DNA from: a virus
Length of the DNA: 20,804 nucleotides
Virus record (IMG/VR): IMGVR_UViG_3300014050_000174
Location: 1 to 20,804 of that record
Direction: 5' to 3' (one strand)
The position numbers were made by a program, and so were the translations under genes. Below are positions 7,701-12,433 of the stretch, piece by piece; the stretch's first letter is position 1, and each line of letters starts with the position of its first letter. The notes under the pieces were generated by a model, which ran no database searches, had not been told where the DNA came from, and saw nothing but the letters and a program-made list of their open reading frames with translations.

Positions 7701-8030
7701 CTACTGCTTATTGCCCCGCAGCTTCTGCTCCAGCATCGCAACCCGCTCGGAAAGCTGGGCGACACGCGGATCCCGCGGGGCGTAGGTCCAGGTGCCAAAC
7801 CGCCGCCATTCGGTGCTGTCGTCCAGGCGAGGGTCGTCCCGGTGGCGGACGCTGGGCTTCTCCACCCCGCCGTACCCTGGAGACAGGGCCCAGAGGGTAA
7901 GCGTGTCCTGGCCCACCTTGATGACGAACGCCATCACCTGATCAGACCCCTCATGGGACTGATACAGCACCGTGTCGCCCACGGAGGCGGCCGGCATCTT
8001 CCAGTTCACTTTTTCGTCGGTCCCAGGCAT
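7701..8030 (-). CDS. Small unknown phage protein between terminase and portal
   Basis: 109 aa. The middle (ASVGDTVLYQSHEGSDQVMA) reads like a small beta-barrel of the kind found in short phage proteins at this position, and the C-terminus (PRVAQLSERVAMLEQKLRGN) is a predicted short coiled coil, which may trimerise the protein. The ATG at 8030 lies inside the 3' end of the large terminase gene (25-base overlap) and is preceded by AAGGGATACGT, a good ribosome site. Function unknown; a minor virion or connector protein is possible. Confidence 0.75.
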   Translation of the reverse strand: MPGTDEKVNWKMPAASVGDTVLYQSHEGSDQVMAFVIKVGQDTLTLWALSPGYGGVEKPSVRHRDDPRLDDSTEWRRFGTWTYAPRDPRVAQLSERVAMLEQKLRGNKQ

Positions 8031-10549
8031 ACGTATCCCTTTCCGTCATCGCCCTGACGTTTCAGACGCTCGGCACGCCATTTGACATACCACGGCTCAG
8101 GGCCTGGCCGGGCTGGCGGTTGGTGGTACTGCGGCTCATAGGCACAGAGGTATTCCAAACATTGACAGCTGTGTACCTCGCCGCGTGTGTTGGGCATATC
8201 CGTGACGAACGGACCGTTGTTGGACTGCACCACTTTTTTCTTGTACCGACGCAGTTCGCGGTACAGCTCTGGCACAGCGTTCTCCAGGAACTTCAGCTGA
8301 GTGCTGCCGTCACCGCGGATGTGCAGCATTTGCCGCACCAGGGCGGTTCTCGCCTGGATGTCGTCGGATCCGGGGACGAACTGGAACCCAGACATTTGTG
8401 CCCGGATGTTTCGTTCCCGGAGTTGCTCCGAATACAGGTCGCATGGCAGCCTGCCTGAACCAAGGTCCCTCAGTGTACCTCCGTGCATGTCCATGATGAA
8501 AGCGTAAAAGTGCTGCCCTTCGCACTTGGCGGCAAAAGCCTCACCCCAGATCAGGGCGTTGGCGTTCCGCAGGTACAGCTCGTCATAGACCAGGATGAAC
8601 CGCTCGTCCGGAGGCACCGCCGCGAACACGCAGGCCATGACGGTGTGGCCAGGGTCGATGGATACGTAGCGCGTCCACTCCGGCGGAACGATGCCGTCCG
8701 GCAGCTCCGACCTGGGGAGCGTATGGACCATGGTGTTGAATGAGGGGTACATGAGGATGGAGTCCTGGGTGAACTCGCCCTCGGCCCGCATGCGCAGCTC
8801 ATCGACGCCCAGGGCAGACCACCGGGCGATGTTCTTCTCCTTCTCCTCCCGGTCGATGTGGTCGTTGTCCAGGAACCGCAGGACGAACTTCTTGATCTGC
8901 GGGTTTTCCTTACCCTCCTCGGCCTCCTTGTCTGCCCGCTCACACAGACCCAGCAGGGCGTCGTTCTTGGAGTGCGGCATGGCCGACCACACCAGCCGGC
9001 CTTTACGGTCAGCCAGGCGGGCCTGCATCTCCCCCACCCAAGATGGGTTGGAGATGTCCTCGTCGATATGCACCAAATCGGCCTGAAAACCCTGTGGGGG
9101 CTCGCCCTCAGAGGAAAAGAAGTTGACCGTCCATCCATTGGTCAGGACGACACGCTGGCAGTACCCGGCGTTCTTCAGAACCCAGGACACGTCTTCGACT
9201 AGTCTGGGTGGAACCAAGGGCGGTGCTGGTTTCGTCTCCGCTCGGCGGTCTGCGTCCTGGACAGGGCGGAATGCCCGCCACTCGCCAGTCTCCAGGTCCT
9301 TGATGATCCGGAACGCACCGGCCTTGAAGAGCATGGGATAGGCCACCAGGCCGATGTGCGGCCAGTTCCTGCCTATCACCACTAGGTTGCCGCCCTCCTT
9401 GGGATACTTGCCGAACGGATCAGTACCCGTCAGTGCGCGGGCGTCCTCTACGAACGTGGAGAGCGATTTGCCGCTGTTGTGGTTTGCCACGCCATCGATG
9501 AGGTAGTTGTGGTAGCGGGGGACGGAAAAGTCCCACACCGGCCCTCGTCCCAAATACGTGCAGGAGGTAATATACACATGTTCATTACCCCCTTCAGGAG
9601 AACGACATGGGGCTTCACAACAAGATCGACTGGCCTGTTGAGCAGATGAGGATCTGGTATGAGCAGGAAAGAAAAACAGTGGCCGAGATAGGCGCCCTGC
9701 TTGGTCGTAGCCCAAAGTCTGTGAACAAGGCATGCAAGCGGTTTGGGTTTCGCATGCGTCGGCGTGGGCCCAAGGCTGGCCATGAGCATCCGGGCTGGAG
9801 GGGAGGCCGGGTGAAAGACAAGGGCGGCTACACGCTGGTGCATGCCCCTGATCATCCGGACTGCAATGCCAATGGCTACATCCGGGAGCATCGCCTGGTG
9901 TGTGAGTCTCTTCTAGGACGGCGGCTAAGGCCGGCAGAGGTTGTTCACCACAGGAACGACGACCCCTCCGATAACCGCCCGGAGAACCTTCAGGTGTATG
10001 ACACCAACGCCGATCATCTTCGCGCAACACTGGCAGGTAAGTGCCCCCAGTGGTCCGCTGAAGGTCGGCAACGCATTCTGGCAGCAACACGTCGCCCACG
10101 GGGGCCCAGGCGCCGTCGGCATCCAGGACAAGGTGGTTCAGCGTGCAACGTAATTCTCCGCCGTTGCTCAACTGAAACGCATACAGGTGATCCCATCCTT
10201 TGATGAAAGGCCGCTTGGCTGGTGCCGTGACGGTGTAGCCACAGTGGACCGCCGTCACCCAGAACCAGTCGTCAATCTCACTGACGGTCCGGTGCTTGCC
10301 GGTGACCGGGTCCAGTATCTTCTGGTCTCCGGCCAGGCACCGATTTCCTCCAAGCACTATCCGCTCAGACGCCATGCTGGCGTGCATCTGCTGCTGAAGC
10401 GGCATGGGCTCGTACAGCCGGAGTGCTTCGATCTTCCGGCTCTTCAGCTCCGCCTGGACCTCTTTGAGGTGGCCAAGCGTGTGCTGGGTCACGCCGGGGA
10501 CGACCGGCGGCTTAGGATGGTCCGGGATCTTCCGCGGGTGCGGTTTCAC
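8006..10549 (-). CDS. terL: Terminase large subunit interrupted by an intein in the Walker A motif
   Basis: 847 aa precursor; removing the intein (residues 71-358) leaves a 559-aa DNA-packaging motor, a normal length. The ATPase Walker A is GGNR (67-70) joined to SGKS (359-362). Walker B is LVHIDED (492-498). The RNase H-like nuclease begins with YVSIDPGHT (about 628-636), with a second acidic strand at AFIMDMHGG (683-691). I chose the GTG at 10549 because GGAGGT stands five bases before it; the frame is open back to another GTG at 10567 without a ribosome site. The gene overlaps the preceding one by 38 bases. The protein cuts and translocates DNA into the procapsid together with the portal, two genes downstream. 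Splicing is needed for a functional ATP-binding loop. Confidence 0.92.
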   Translation of the reverse strand: MKPHPRKIPDHPKPPVVPGVTQHTLGHLKEVQAELKSRKIEALRLYEPMPLQQQMHASMASERIVLGGNRCLAGDQKILDPVTGKHRTVSEIDDWFWVTAVHCGYTVTAPAKRPFIKGWDHLYAFQLSNGGELRCTLNHLVLDADGAWAPVGDVLLPECVADLQRTTGGTYLPVLREDDRRWCHTPEGSPGGYRRGRRSCGEQPLPALAAVLEETHTPGDAPGCSHWHCSPDDQGHAPACSRPCLSPGLPSSPDAHGQPWAHADACETQTACMPCSQTLGYDQAGRLSRPLFFFPAHTRSSSAQQASRSCCEAPCRSPEGGNEHVYITSCTYLGRGPVWDFSVPRYHNYLIDGVANHNSGKSLSTFVEDARALTGTDPFGKYPKEGGNLVVIGRNWPHIGLVAYPMLFKAGAFRIIKDLETGEWRAFRPVQDADRRAETKPAPPLVPPRLVEDVSWVLKNAGYCQRVVLTNGWTVNFFSSEGEPPQGFQADLVHIDEDISNPSWVGEMQARLADRKGRLVWSAMPHSKNDALLGLCERADKEAEEGKENPQIKKFVLRFLDNDHIDREEKEKNIARWSALGVDELRMRAEGEFTQDSILMYPSFNTMVHTLPRSELPDGIVPPEWTRYVSIDPGHTVMACVFAAVPPDERFILVYDELYLRNANALIWGEAFAAKCEGQHFYAFIMDMHGGTLRDLGSGRLPCDLYSEQLRERNIRAQMSGFQFVPGSDDIQARTALVRQMLHIRGDGSTQLKFLENAVPELYRELRRYKKKVVQSNNGPFVTDMPNTRGEVHSCQCLEYLCAYEPQYHQPPARPGPEPWYVKWRAERLKRQGDDGKGYVCLGPTKK
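9562..9597 (+). promoter_or_regulatory. Two Shine-Dalgarno sites ahead of the antisense HNH gene
   Basis: AGGAGA at 9592-9597 is well placed for the HNH ATG at 9607. A second, stronger site, AGGAGG at 9562-9567, precedes an ATG at 9578 that opens a 23-codon frame ending inside the HNH gene. A TAATAT at 9568-9573 resembles a -10 box, but I see no matching -35. These bases simultaneously encode intein block F-side residues on the other strand. Whether the upstream site is used is unknown. Confidence 0.45.
9607..10203 (+). CDS. HNH homing endonuclease, antisense within the terL intein
   Basis: 198 aa, the only plus-strand gene I support. Residues about 8-50 form a helix-turn-helix (VAEIGALLGRSPKSVNKACK) followed by a basic linker RMRRRG. 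Residues 90-145 are an HNH_3-type nuclease: YIREHRLVCESLLGRRL, then EVVHHRNDDPSDNRPENLQV, with candidate metal and catalytic residues H95, H114, H115 and N123. A Shine-Dalgarno AGGAGA stands seven bases before the ATG. Recognisable similarity ends near residue 160 (LAGKCPQWSAEGRQRILAA), close to where intein block B ends on the other strand; the last approximately 38 residues are Arg-rich and overlap intein coding. Codon use is less GC-rich at third positions than the surroundings. It likely cuts intein-free terL alleles at the Walker A codons (inference). Confidence 0.88.
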   Translation: MGLHNKIDWPVEQMRIWYEQERKTVAEIGALLGRSPKSVNKACKRFGFRMRRRGPKAGHEHPGWRGGRVKDKGGYTLVHAPDHPDCNANGYIREHRLVCESLLGRRLRPAEVVHHRNDDPSDNRPENLQVYDTNADHLRATLAGKCPQWSAEGRQRILAATRRPRGPRRRRHPGQGGSACNVILRRCSTETHTGDPIL

Positions 10550-11054
10550 TGAGGACCTCCACTGCACGGCTGACCGGCAGAGCCTTGAGTGTGATGGCCG
10601 TCTCCATCAGGCGCTGCCGCAGTTCCTCTTCCAGCTCGTCTTCGGTCCACACCGACAGAGGCTTCTTGGCACCGCCCATTGCTGTGTTCGCATTTACCAG
10701 CCGCACCAGCGTCTCCAGCATCTTCGTCCGGTGAGCCCCCCCAGGAGGCGAATCGTAGTACTGTTTCATGAACACATTGCCGAAACCACGCACGCCGCCG
10801 AAGTACTCTAGAAGGACTTCGATCAGCTCGGCGCTGTGCGGGATCGTTGACCCGCCCAGCCGGGCCGCCTTGCAGAACACGTCCACCGCGTCCTGCTCTA
10901 TGGCATCCAGCCGCGAGTCCTTCTTCTTCTTGCGGCGTTTTCGTTCGTAGGACGACCGGCACGTCTTGCATTTGGGGTGCATCCTGCCATCGGCTGACCG
11001 ATGGAAACTGGTCTCTGGCAGCTCCTGCTTGCATTCGATGCAGGTCTTCTTCAT
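10512..11054 (-). CDS. Zinc-ribbon protein, candidate terminase small subunit
   Basis: 180 aa. Residues C5, C8, C29 and C32 (CIEC ... CKTC) form a zinc ribbon of the type with PETSFHRSADGRMHPKCKTC, followed by a strongly basic RKRRKKKK stretch (about 38-45) suited to nucleic-acid binding. The rest is helical and acidic at the C-terminus. It directly precedes and overlaps the large terminase gene, the usual place of the small terminase subunit that recognises the packaging site; I see no classic small-terminase helix-turn-helix, so this is positional inference. Similar zinc ribbons also occur in HNH nucleases, but no HNH core is present. The ATG at 11054 overlaps the previous stop (ATGA); an upstream TTG is less likely. 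Confidence 0.65.
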   Translation of the reverse strand: MKKTCIECKQELPETSFHRSADGRMHPKCKTCRSSYERKRRKKKKDSRLDAIEQDAVDVFCKAARLGGSTIPHSAELIEVLLEYFGGVRGFGNVFMKQYYDSPPGGAHRTKMLETLVRLVNANTAMGGAKKPLSVWTEDELEEELRQRLMETAITLKALPVSRAVEVLSETAPAEDPGPS

Positions 11055-12433
11055 AGCTTGCAGTGCCAAACGTTCCCGTTAACCACGGGCACCAGGCCGC
11101 AATCCGCAACCGCCCGCTTCACGCCATTGAATGAGTGGTAGTCATGGCCCGCCAGGATGTGCTTGGCCTTGGGCTTCCAAGCCAGGATGTCCTGCTTGAC
11201 CGATTCGTAGTCATGCTCGGCATCGATGTAGACGATGTCAAACTGGCCGTCTCGGAACTTGGCTGCCGCGTCAGGCGACTTGGCCTTGACGGCGGAGATG
11301 TTCATACCGGCGGTGTTGCGCTGGAACACCTCAAACGGCGACCCGGCTTGGCCGCTGTACTGCTTGCACCCCTCGTCGTTGACGTTCCCACCCCACGTAT
11401 CCACGCATGTCACATGTGCTGCCCCTGACTGGGCCATGATGATCGCACTGCGGCCAGCCCATGAGCCCACTTCCAACACCACCGGCTTGCGGCGATGCTC
11501 GTCGCGGAACTTCTGCACCAGCGCAGCCAGCGCCTCGGCGTCGGTCTGCGGCAGGTCCATGCCCATGTCGTTGAAGCTCTTTGGTAGCCAGGTCGGCTCC
11601 GGGAGGTCCACCAGCTTGTTGACACAGCCGGCCTCCACCGCACCGCGGAGTTTCTCCGACACATGGGCCGCCGTGATGATCACAGGCTTGCCAACGCACT
11701 TTGGTTTCCAGTGACCCGCCCAGGCGTCCCAATTGCAAAACACCGGGTTGTAGCCTAGCTTTTGCACGCCTACGAGCGACAAGTCCCGCGTCATCGTCAC
11801 GTCTTCTGTGCTTGCCTTCTCGGCGGCGTAGCGGTCCTTCCACTCGTAGTAGAACCAGGGCTTGTCCGCCTCGGACCGCGGCTCGGTCAGTTCAAAAGCC
11901 CGCATGTCATACATGATCAGGCCGGTGGGGAGCGCAGCGCACTCCTGGATGCCGGTCATGTTGTGGCCGGTGTTCCGGTCATACATCTCCAGCTGATAGT
12001 CCGGGTTGGCGTGTTCCGACTGCATGTTCTGCCAGCGGAACACGTACACGCACTCCGCAGGGGGAGGCCCGCAGTAGGGGGCCCCAATGACGCACGGTCC
12101 CTTGGGGTAGTGATTCACCAGGAAGTCAAAGCTGCTCTGGAAGAACGGCTTCACTCCTGGCTGGCCGGCGTTGATGTCCGGCTTCATGTCAGAGTCCACC
12201 ATCACCAGTACATCCAGTCCGTATTCCCGGGCCATGAGGACGGCCCGGTTGCGGGTCATGGTGATGGGCGTGTCTGACAGGTTCCAGATGCGGACCTGTT
12301 CGATCCTGTCGGACTTGGACAGGTCTGCGACCAACGGCACCATCCACTCACGGATGTCAGGCACTTCGGAGGAGATGCCGCCGTTGCCGCCGTATGAGAA
12401 CGTACAGAATCCGACGCTGAACTTCTGGTTCAT
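11051..12433 (-). CDS. Glycosyltransferase - methyltransferase fusion
   Basis: 460 aa with two domains. Residues about 5-250 are a GT-A type glycosyltransferase: TMTRNRAVLMAREYGLDVLV followed by MVDSDMKPD, with the metal-binding DSD at 80-82. Residues about 300-460 are a class I SAM-dependent methyltransferase similar to the Methyltransf_24 family: motif I EVGSWAGRSA (321-330), acidic VDTW (344-347), YIDAEHDYE (402-410) and GHDYHSFNGV (429-438). The two domains would transfer a sugar and methylate a product, perhaps the same glycan. The substrate is unknown. It lies between Pro/Gln-rich structural genes and the terminase. Its GGAG ribosome site is inside a perfect 6-bp hairpin, which may limit translation. 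Start at ATG 12433. Confidence 0.85.
   Translation of the reverse strand: MNQKFSVGFCTFSYGGNGGISSEVPDIREWMVPLVADLSKSDRIEQVRIWNLSDTPITMTRNRAVLMAREYGLDVLVMVDSDMKPDINAGQPGVKPFFQSSFDFLVNHYPKGPCVIGAPYCGPPPAECVYVFRWQNMQSEHANPDYQLEMYDRNTGHNMTGIQECAALPTGLIMYDMRAFELTEPRSEADKPWFYYEWKDRYAAEKASTEDVTMTRDLSLVGVQKLGYNPVFCNWDAWAGHWKPKCVGKPVIITAAHVSEKLRGAVEAGCVNKLVDLPEPTWLPKSFNDMGMDLPQTDAEALAALVQKFRDEHRRKPVVLEVGSWAGRSAIIMAQSGAAHVTCVDTWGGNVNDEGCKQYSGQAGSPFEVFQRNTAGMNISAVKAKSPDAAAKFRDGQFDIVYIDAEHDYESVKQDILAWKPKAKHILAGHDYHSFNGVKRAVADCGLVPVVNGNVWHCKL

Follow-up and report, generated by a model that had tools for sequence, protein, structure and literature searches.

Organization of the terL locus

The window, by which we mean the whole stretch of 20,804 nt of viral DNA that was analysed, carries on its minus strand a gene for the large terminase subunit (terL; product matching PHROG phrog_2 terminase at 1.3e-4) whose frame contains an intein-like insert, and within this insert lies, on the opposite strand, a gene for an HTH-HNH endonuclease (Table 1). 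The insert splits the P-loop of TerL as GGNR|SGKS, and in homologues from IMG/VR that lack it the GGNR-SGKS junction is restored at ∼98 % protein identity to the window TerL. An earlier note, made from the letters of this DNA alone, had placed the intein exactly to the base; it had also described the splicing blocks A, B, F and G as complete, and all four were located, together with Cys1 and a +1 Ser. The intein begins with CLAGDQ (Cys1), has TLNH in block B and VWDFSVPRYHNYLIDG (VWDF..HNY) as block F, and ends in VANHN (block G NHN). The four blocks were present in six aligned window-type members, and the terminal intein residues were retained in all 23 contigs carrying the same element (the window-type group, described below). 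The intein-profile comparison that the note had proposed for the minus-strand product gave a divided result: with the single sequence the matches were weak and lay under the curated cut-offs (Pfam Intein_splicing, 0.0023; TIGR01445, 0.0038), whilst a profile built from the alignment of relatives (A6) matched solved DnaB and RecA inteins, the best at 5.8e-10 and several others at < 1e-6. AlphaFold2 modelling of the intein, from an alignment of six sequences only, reached a pLDDT of 34 and yielded no fold. By its sequence the insert is an intein, and it would be expected to splice.

Table 1. Features of the terL locus in window coordinates
Feature	Position	Strand	Remarks and basis
terL ORF including intein, large terminase subunit	8006–10567	−	853 aa, GTG start, open throughout
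N-extein, 76 aa	10340–10567	−	ends in GGNR of the P-loop; junction read directly in empty alleles
Putative intein, 288 aa / 864 nt	9476–10339	−	TerL residues 77–364, between GGNR and SGKS; same length in 23/23 members
Hint-N part, blocks A and B	10085–10339	−	TxxH at 10133–10144; mostly intein-type codon variation; aligns with 132-aa mini-inteins
Central insert of the intein frame	9608–10084	−	antisense reading of HNH; stop-free, weakly conserved as protein
Hint-C part	9476–9607	−	block F 9491–9538, block G HN 9476–9481; mini-intein alignment and codon variation
C-extein, 489 aa	8009–9475	−	first residues SGKS; empty alleles
HTH-HNH endonuclease gene, 198 aa	9607–10203	+	conserved core 9607–10137; profile matches, AlphaFold2 model
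Ribosome-binding site AGGAG of the HNH gene	9596–9600	+	6 nt ahead of ATG; 4–6 nt Shine-Dalgarno (SD) match in 22/23 members
Imperfect palindrome GGTAATATACACATGTTCATTACC, 24 nt, upstream of the HNH gene	9566–9589	+	left-half invariance; arms specific to nested inteins

The plus-strand product matched Pfam HNH_3 (9e-9) and PHROG 20891 (6.7e-25) and, with AGGAG upstream of its ATG, this bears out the earlier description of an opposite-strand HTH-HNH gene with its own ribosome site inside the intein. Matches to HTH profiles were weak (HTH_38, 0.01). An AlphaFold2 model of the protein (pLDDT 72) showed a helical N-terminal part and an HNH-type region, and a PDB fold search with this model gave nothing better than weak matches to helix-turn-helix structures, none of them under 1e-3; a PDB search with the HNH protein sequence (A1) gave no match, nor did PADLOC. 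The two frames share codon position 1, and the third base of an HNH codon falls on position 2 of an intein codon, so that HNH residue r sits over intein residue 246−r. The ATG start is kept in 22 of the 23 window-type contigs; in the remaining one (element L003:1585–2448) it is AGG, which may mark the onset of endonuclease decay. Within the helix-turn-helix region of HNH (9676–9692), ACAGTGG and AGATAGG were invariant in 18 members, wobble positions and a rare ATA codon included.

With regard to expression, an SD match also precedes HNH in 44 of 48 members of a second, divergent group (Ymer-type, below), compared with 13 % of random single positions; the count of 44 is somewhat inflated as the best of several candidate starts was taken. 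Across 18 non-redundant members the left half of the palindrome did not vary, wobble positions of the intein frame included, and among 164 loci its exact arms, GGTAAT-N12-ATTACC, occurred only in nested inteins. It is probably a regulatory or promoter-proximal signal, and may act as a promoter element or as the enzyme's own operator; a consensus scan found no sigma-70-like promoter upstream of HNH. The gene's own ribosome site and its strand suggest that HNH may be expressed separately from terL, a point on which the earlier note went further than the evidence. Immediately upstream of terL, and overlapping it, is a further gene (10512–11069) that is endonuclease VII/HNH-like (PHROG 1035, 2.2e-9).

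Recurrence of the nested arrangement

Twenty-three IMG/VR contigs, the window included, share the element. In each of them the intein is exactly 864 nt without a stop, the HNH frame is open, and the terminase/intein frame runs open across the whole HNH gene, as had been claimed for the window; the remaining frames are interrupted by stops, save that minus frame +1 is free of them in a few members. The presence of this 864-nt element in all 23, with neither frame broken, ruled out an assembly error as the source of the nesting. A split intein or fractured gene was likewise ruled out by the single ORF that stays open in all members, and a group I intron by the absence of any Rfam intron match in 8000–11100 and a host frame open throughout. 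A tblastn search of TerL against the phage collection gave no match, so that close relatives of the phage come from metagenomes only.

Homologous terL genes with the same nesting, for which the earlier note had suggested searching, were found not only in these contigs but also in the divergent Ymer-type group. Relatives of HNH in the phage collection included Pectobacterium phage Ymer with seven relatives, and Pseudoalteromonas phage PHS3. In Ymer, HNH is antisense inside a 754-aa TerL with the intein GFG|CVHP...HHN|TGKS (TEHH, HHN|T), whilst the intein of PHS3 is 300 aa long (SGHH, HHN|S). A nested element is also carried by the prophage of Escherichia coli MEI003, the same site being empty in E. 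coli ET729; among 5,426 E. coli genomes, 784 matched the prophage region, and the HNH stretch was matched by MEI003 only. Between the window-type and Ymer-type groups HNH is ∼40 % identical and Hint ∼20 %, with the same phase and site; the two groups may descend from one nested ancestor or may each have acquired HNH independently. Scanning IMG/VR with the Ymer and PHS3 HNH proteins, we obtained 241 relatives, the best 80 of which were analysed and joined by three loci from genome contigs, one of them from a prophage of Enterobacter cloacae DSM 26481. In all 83 of these HNH loci (L180, L235 and L250 being read by eye) the frame antisense to HNH runs without a stop through the gene and into HN|SGKS, HN|TGKS or HN|SSK of a terminase-like frame. 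Antisense nesting recurs in more than 100 phage and prophage sequences. The notion put forward earlier, that it might be an intermediate between mini-intein and split intein, is without support because the arrangement, present at 83/83 HNH loci, is a widespread and stable class in its own right.

The nesting also explains a number of miscalled genes, with TerL given as a pseudogene or begun inside the intein and HNH given as a neighbour. Annotation hides such inteins at KX912252.1 17336–19314, NZ_CP071263.1 151257–153544 and OP748252.2 2451–4715, the forms taken being a TerL begun inside block F, a pseudogene and a hypothetical. In the GenBank record of PHS3, TerL begins at a Met inside block F and HNH is a neighbouring gene, whilst terL of the MEI003 prophage is annotated as a pseudogene.

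Coding constraint on both strands

The openness of the intein frame was assessed in 48 non-redundant members (< 90 % nucleotide identity, GC 0.40–0.58). All 48 had an intein frame without stops and one long HNH ORF in constant relative phase, the four other frames being stop-rich. Synonymous shuffling of the HNH codons put the expected number of stops in the intein frame at 7.3 per gene on average (range 4.1–12.7); none was observed, with P < 0.01 in 48/48 members and < 0.001 in 39. For the window alone the same shuffle gave P = 0.07, and members of its group 0.07–0.19 each, a weak result that is due to their high GC. As such, a frame open by chance is plausible for the window by itself, but is ruled out by the 48-member family.

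Codon variation between relatives indicates which product is maintained where. At the Hint ends it falls chiefly on intein codon position 3; in the overlap it shifts to position 2 of the intein codons, the third position of the HNH codons, and HNH is therefore the selected product over that overlap. Approaching Hint-N, the HNH type and the intein type of variation are mixed. Read as intein, the central insert is poorly conserved as protein and yet never interrupted. Selection thus acts on HNH over the greater part of the overlap and on Hint at either end, and on the two together across part of Hint-N. In 41 Ymer-type members the middle is HNH-like and both ends intein-like, and intein residues ∼25–60 show low variation at all three codon positions; these residues overlie the conserved C-terminal segment of HNH (ARLRQILLAALSLGxDSPYLLG...). 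This doubly constrained stretch, absent from the earlier note, is clearest in the Ymer-type group. We tentatively put forward, at somewhat short of even odds, that this is an entangled selfish element in which a splicing domain and an endonuclease occupy shared base pairs on opposite strands, with ∼35–50 codons doubly constrained in the Ymer-type group; overlap with an indispensable splicing frame might then slow the decay of the endonuclease after fixation, which would explain why intact copies are common.

Mobility, rival readings and known systems

An IMG/VR scan with TerL revealed three kinds of allele at one site: empty, occupied by the same intein, or occupied by a mini-intein of 132 aa. 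The 123 classed terL alleles comprised 97 empty, 22 nested and four mini (L014, L015, L016 and L033, without endonuclease). On a tree of the exteins, 13 changes are required for the nested state, and well-supported branches force no fewer than eight of these; L053 and L094 are a neighbouring pair of nested and empty alleles, and L067 is nested but placed in the mini clade, with a Hint of the nested type. When nested L002 was compared with its empty relatives, identity was 76–86 % in the first 50 nt downstream of the insertion and 98–100 % in the next 50, and similar but weaker dips by the insertion site were seen for L053/L094 and L015/L030. Such footprints, which are short, would fit double-strand-break repair with short co-conversion but could in part reflect local divergence; the patchy presence and the junction footprints are as homing predicts, and support it.

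Taken together, we consider it probable (about 0.88) that the element is a mobile P-loop intein of the large terminase, with an opposite-strand HTH-HNH gene nested wholly within it as its homing endonuclease. A minus-strand message would give TerL with the intein included, the two end segments of which would fold as a minimal Hint domain and splice out, carrying the central antisense reading along as a dispensable, passive loop. A plus-strand message from within the intein would give the HNH enzyme, which would cut terL alleles lacking the intein at the point where it inserts, the whole element then being copied into the cut allele by repair. The anatomy and recurrence of the element, the selection on both frames, the empty sites, the patchy distribution and the junction footprints are observed; we infer splicing, plus-strand transcription, cutting of terL, gene conversion and the passive nature of the loop.

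Much of the evidence above bears also on other readings. It is very improbable, in our judgement, that a passive mini-intein was struck by an unrelated free-standing HNH gene that now homes elsewhere or is dead, the antisense frame being open by chance in GC-rich DNA. Mini-inteins without HNH do occupy the same site, free-standing and ShiLan-type relatives of HNH exist, and the window's frame taken singly could be open by chance at P 0.07; however, all close HNH relatives examined (83/83) are nested at the same terL site, the frame is open even at GC 0.40, where ∼7 stops would be expected, and HNH is under purifying selection. We find it hardly credible that nothing is spliced at all and that HNH is simply a selfish gene inserted in a terL that is either inactive or, by starting internally, yields a C-terminal part of the protein. 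The public annotations of PHS3 and MEI003 agree with that view, but the splicing residues and intein frame are retained in 23/23 contigs and the frame in 48/48 members, the N-extein is conserved and in frame with its half of the P-loop, and TerL is essential for tailed phages.

More an extension than a strict alternative is the idea that HNH acts in trans on the intein family at this site, as a shared helper that mobilises mini alleles. Mini-intein allele L015 and its neighbour, the empty allele L030, are almost identical and differ at the junction, and L015 may have been mobilised in trans by nested relatives; the placement of nested L067 within the mini clade points the same way. The mini alleles may also be no more than loss derivatives; we regard a helper role as possible but rather unlikely.

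Returning to the reading of a mobile intein with a nested antisense endonuclease, its nearest counterparts by site are the TerL inteins of mycobacteriophages, TerL1-a to -e, for representatives of which splicing and the cutting of inteinless terL have been shown (Kelley et al., 2016; PMC5050341). These likewise lie in the TerL ATPase domain, P-loop included. Their endonuclease is an in-frame domain, that of the window element the product of an independent, opposite-strand HNH gene, and TerL1-a is inserted at a Lys-Thr site whereas the window intein precedes SGKS. On account of its opposite-strand endonuclease, the window element was rejected as a canonical large intein. In the ShiLan domain and other hidden HNH insertions, HNH shares the strand of its host gene but not the frame (Arsenault, Gosselin & Gogarten, 2025; PMC11855218). 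As in the window, the host frame remains open and the distribution is homing-like; ShiLan, however, occupies the third frame of the same strand, inside a methylase and without an intein splicing domain, and the opposite strand and the Hint blocks of the window element set it apart from an insertion of that type. A Mantra gene in the methylase series is a relative of the window HNH (48.8 % over 80 aa).

Antisense homing endonuclease genes have been described in nuclear group I introns, namely Didymium Dsq.L2066 and Dir.S956-2 (PMC9548176) and in Porphyra (PMC2585584). With an endonuclease gene nested opposite to a self-splicing element these are functional look-alikes of the window element, but they are RNA introns in rRNA genes with His-Cys box enzymes and have no protein frame to preserve. 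A free-standing endonuclease gene is also said to accompany the split inteins of fractured genes reported by Dassa et al. in 2009; there too it is apart from the Hint domain, but host gene and intein lie in two ORFs, whilst in the window one unbroken ORF crosses the endonuclease gene. No description of an intein with an opposite-strand endonuclease was found in full-text searches of an open-access library, in which the antisense homing genes found were those of group I introns, in agreement with the earlier impression that the arrangement was undescribed. By membership the window element is an intein with an HNH homing gene, and the arrangement is new.

Textbook inteins have their endonuclease in frame or lack one. 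The nested elements form a sizeable class that has been overlooked; with its opposite-strand endonuclease, it constitutes a third way of pairing a splicing element with a mobility enzyme, and this placement would uncouple expression of the enzyme from that of the host gene. Among natural examples of antisense dual coding the nested element ranks with the clearer ones. Since its carriers include phages in culture as well as E. coli prophages, direct tests can be made of splicing, of homing and of what the overlap costs.

Several terL genes contain further elements. A second intein of ordinary design, with an in-frame LAGLIDADG endonuclease unlike the nested one, is present at TerL residue ∼517 in L010:2400–3420, L037:1100–1915 and L040:1634–2583 (Pfam LAGLIDADG_3 at 6.9e-8 in L040), and in L010 the nested-antisense and the in-frame designs occur in one terL gene. 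Furthermore, distant relatives of HNH (∼37 %) lie on the terL strand downstream of terL in L061:1480–1920, L062:1480–1920 and L037:2814–3251, and are a possible source of the nested gene.
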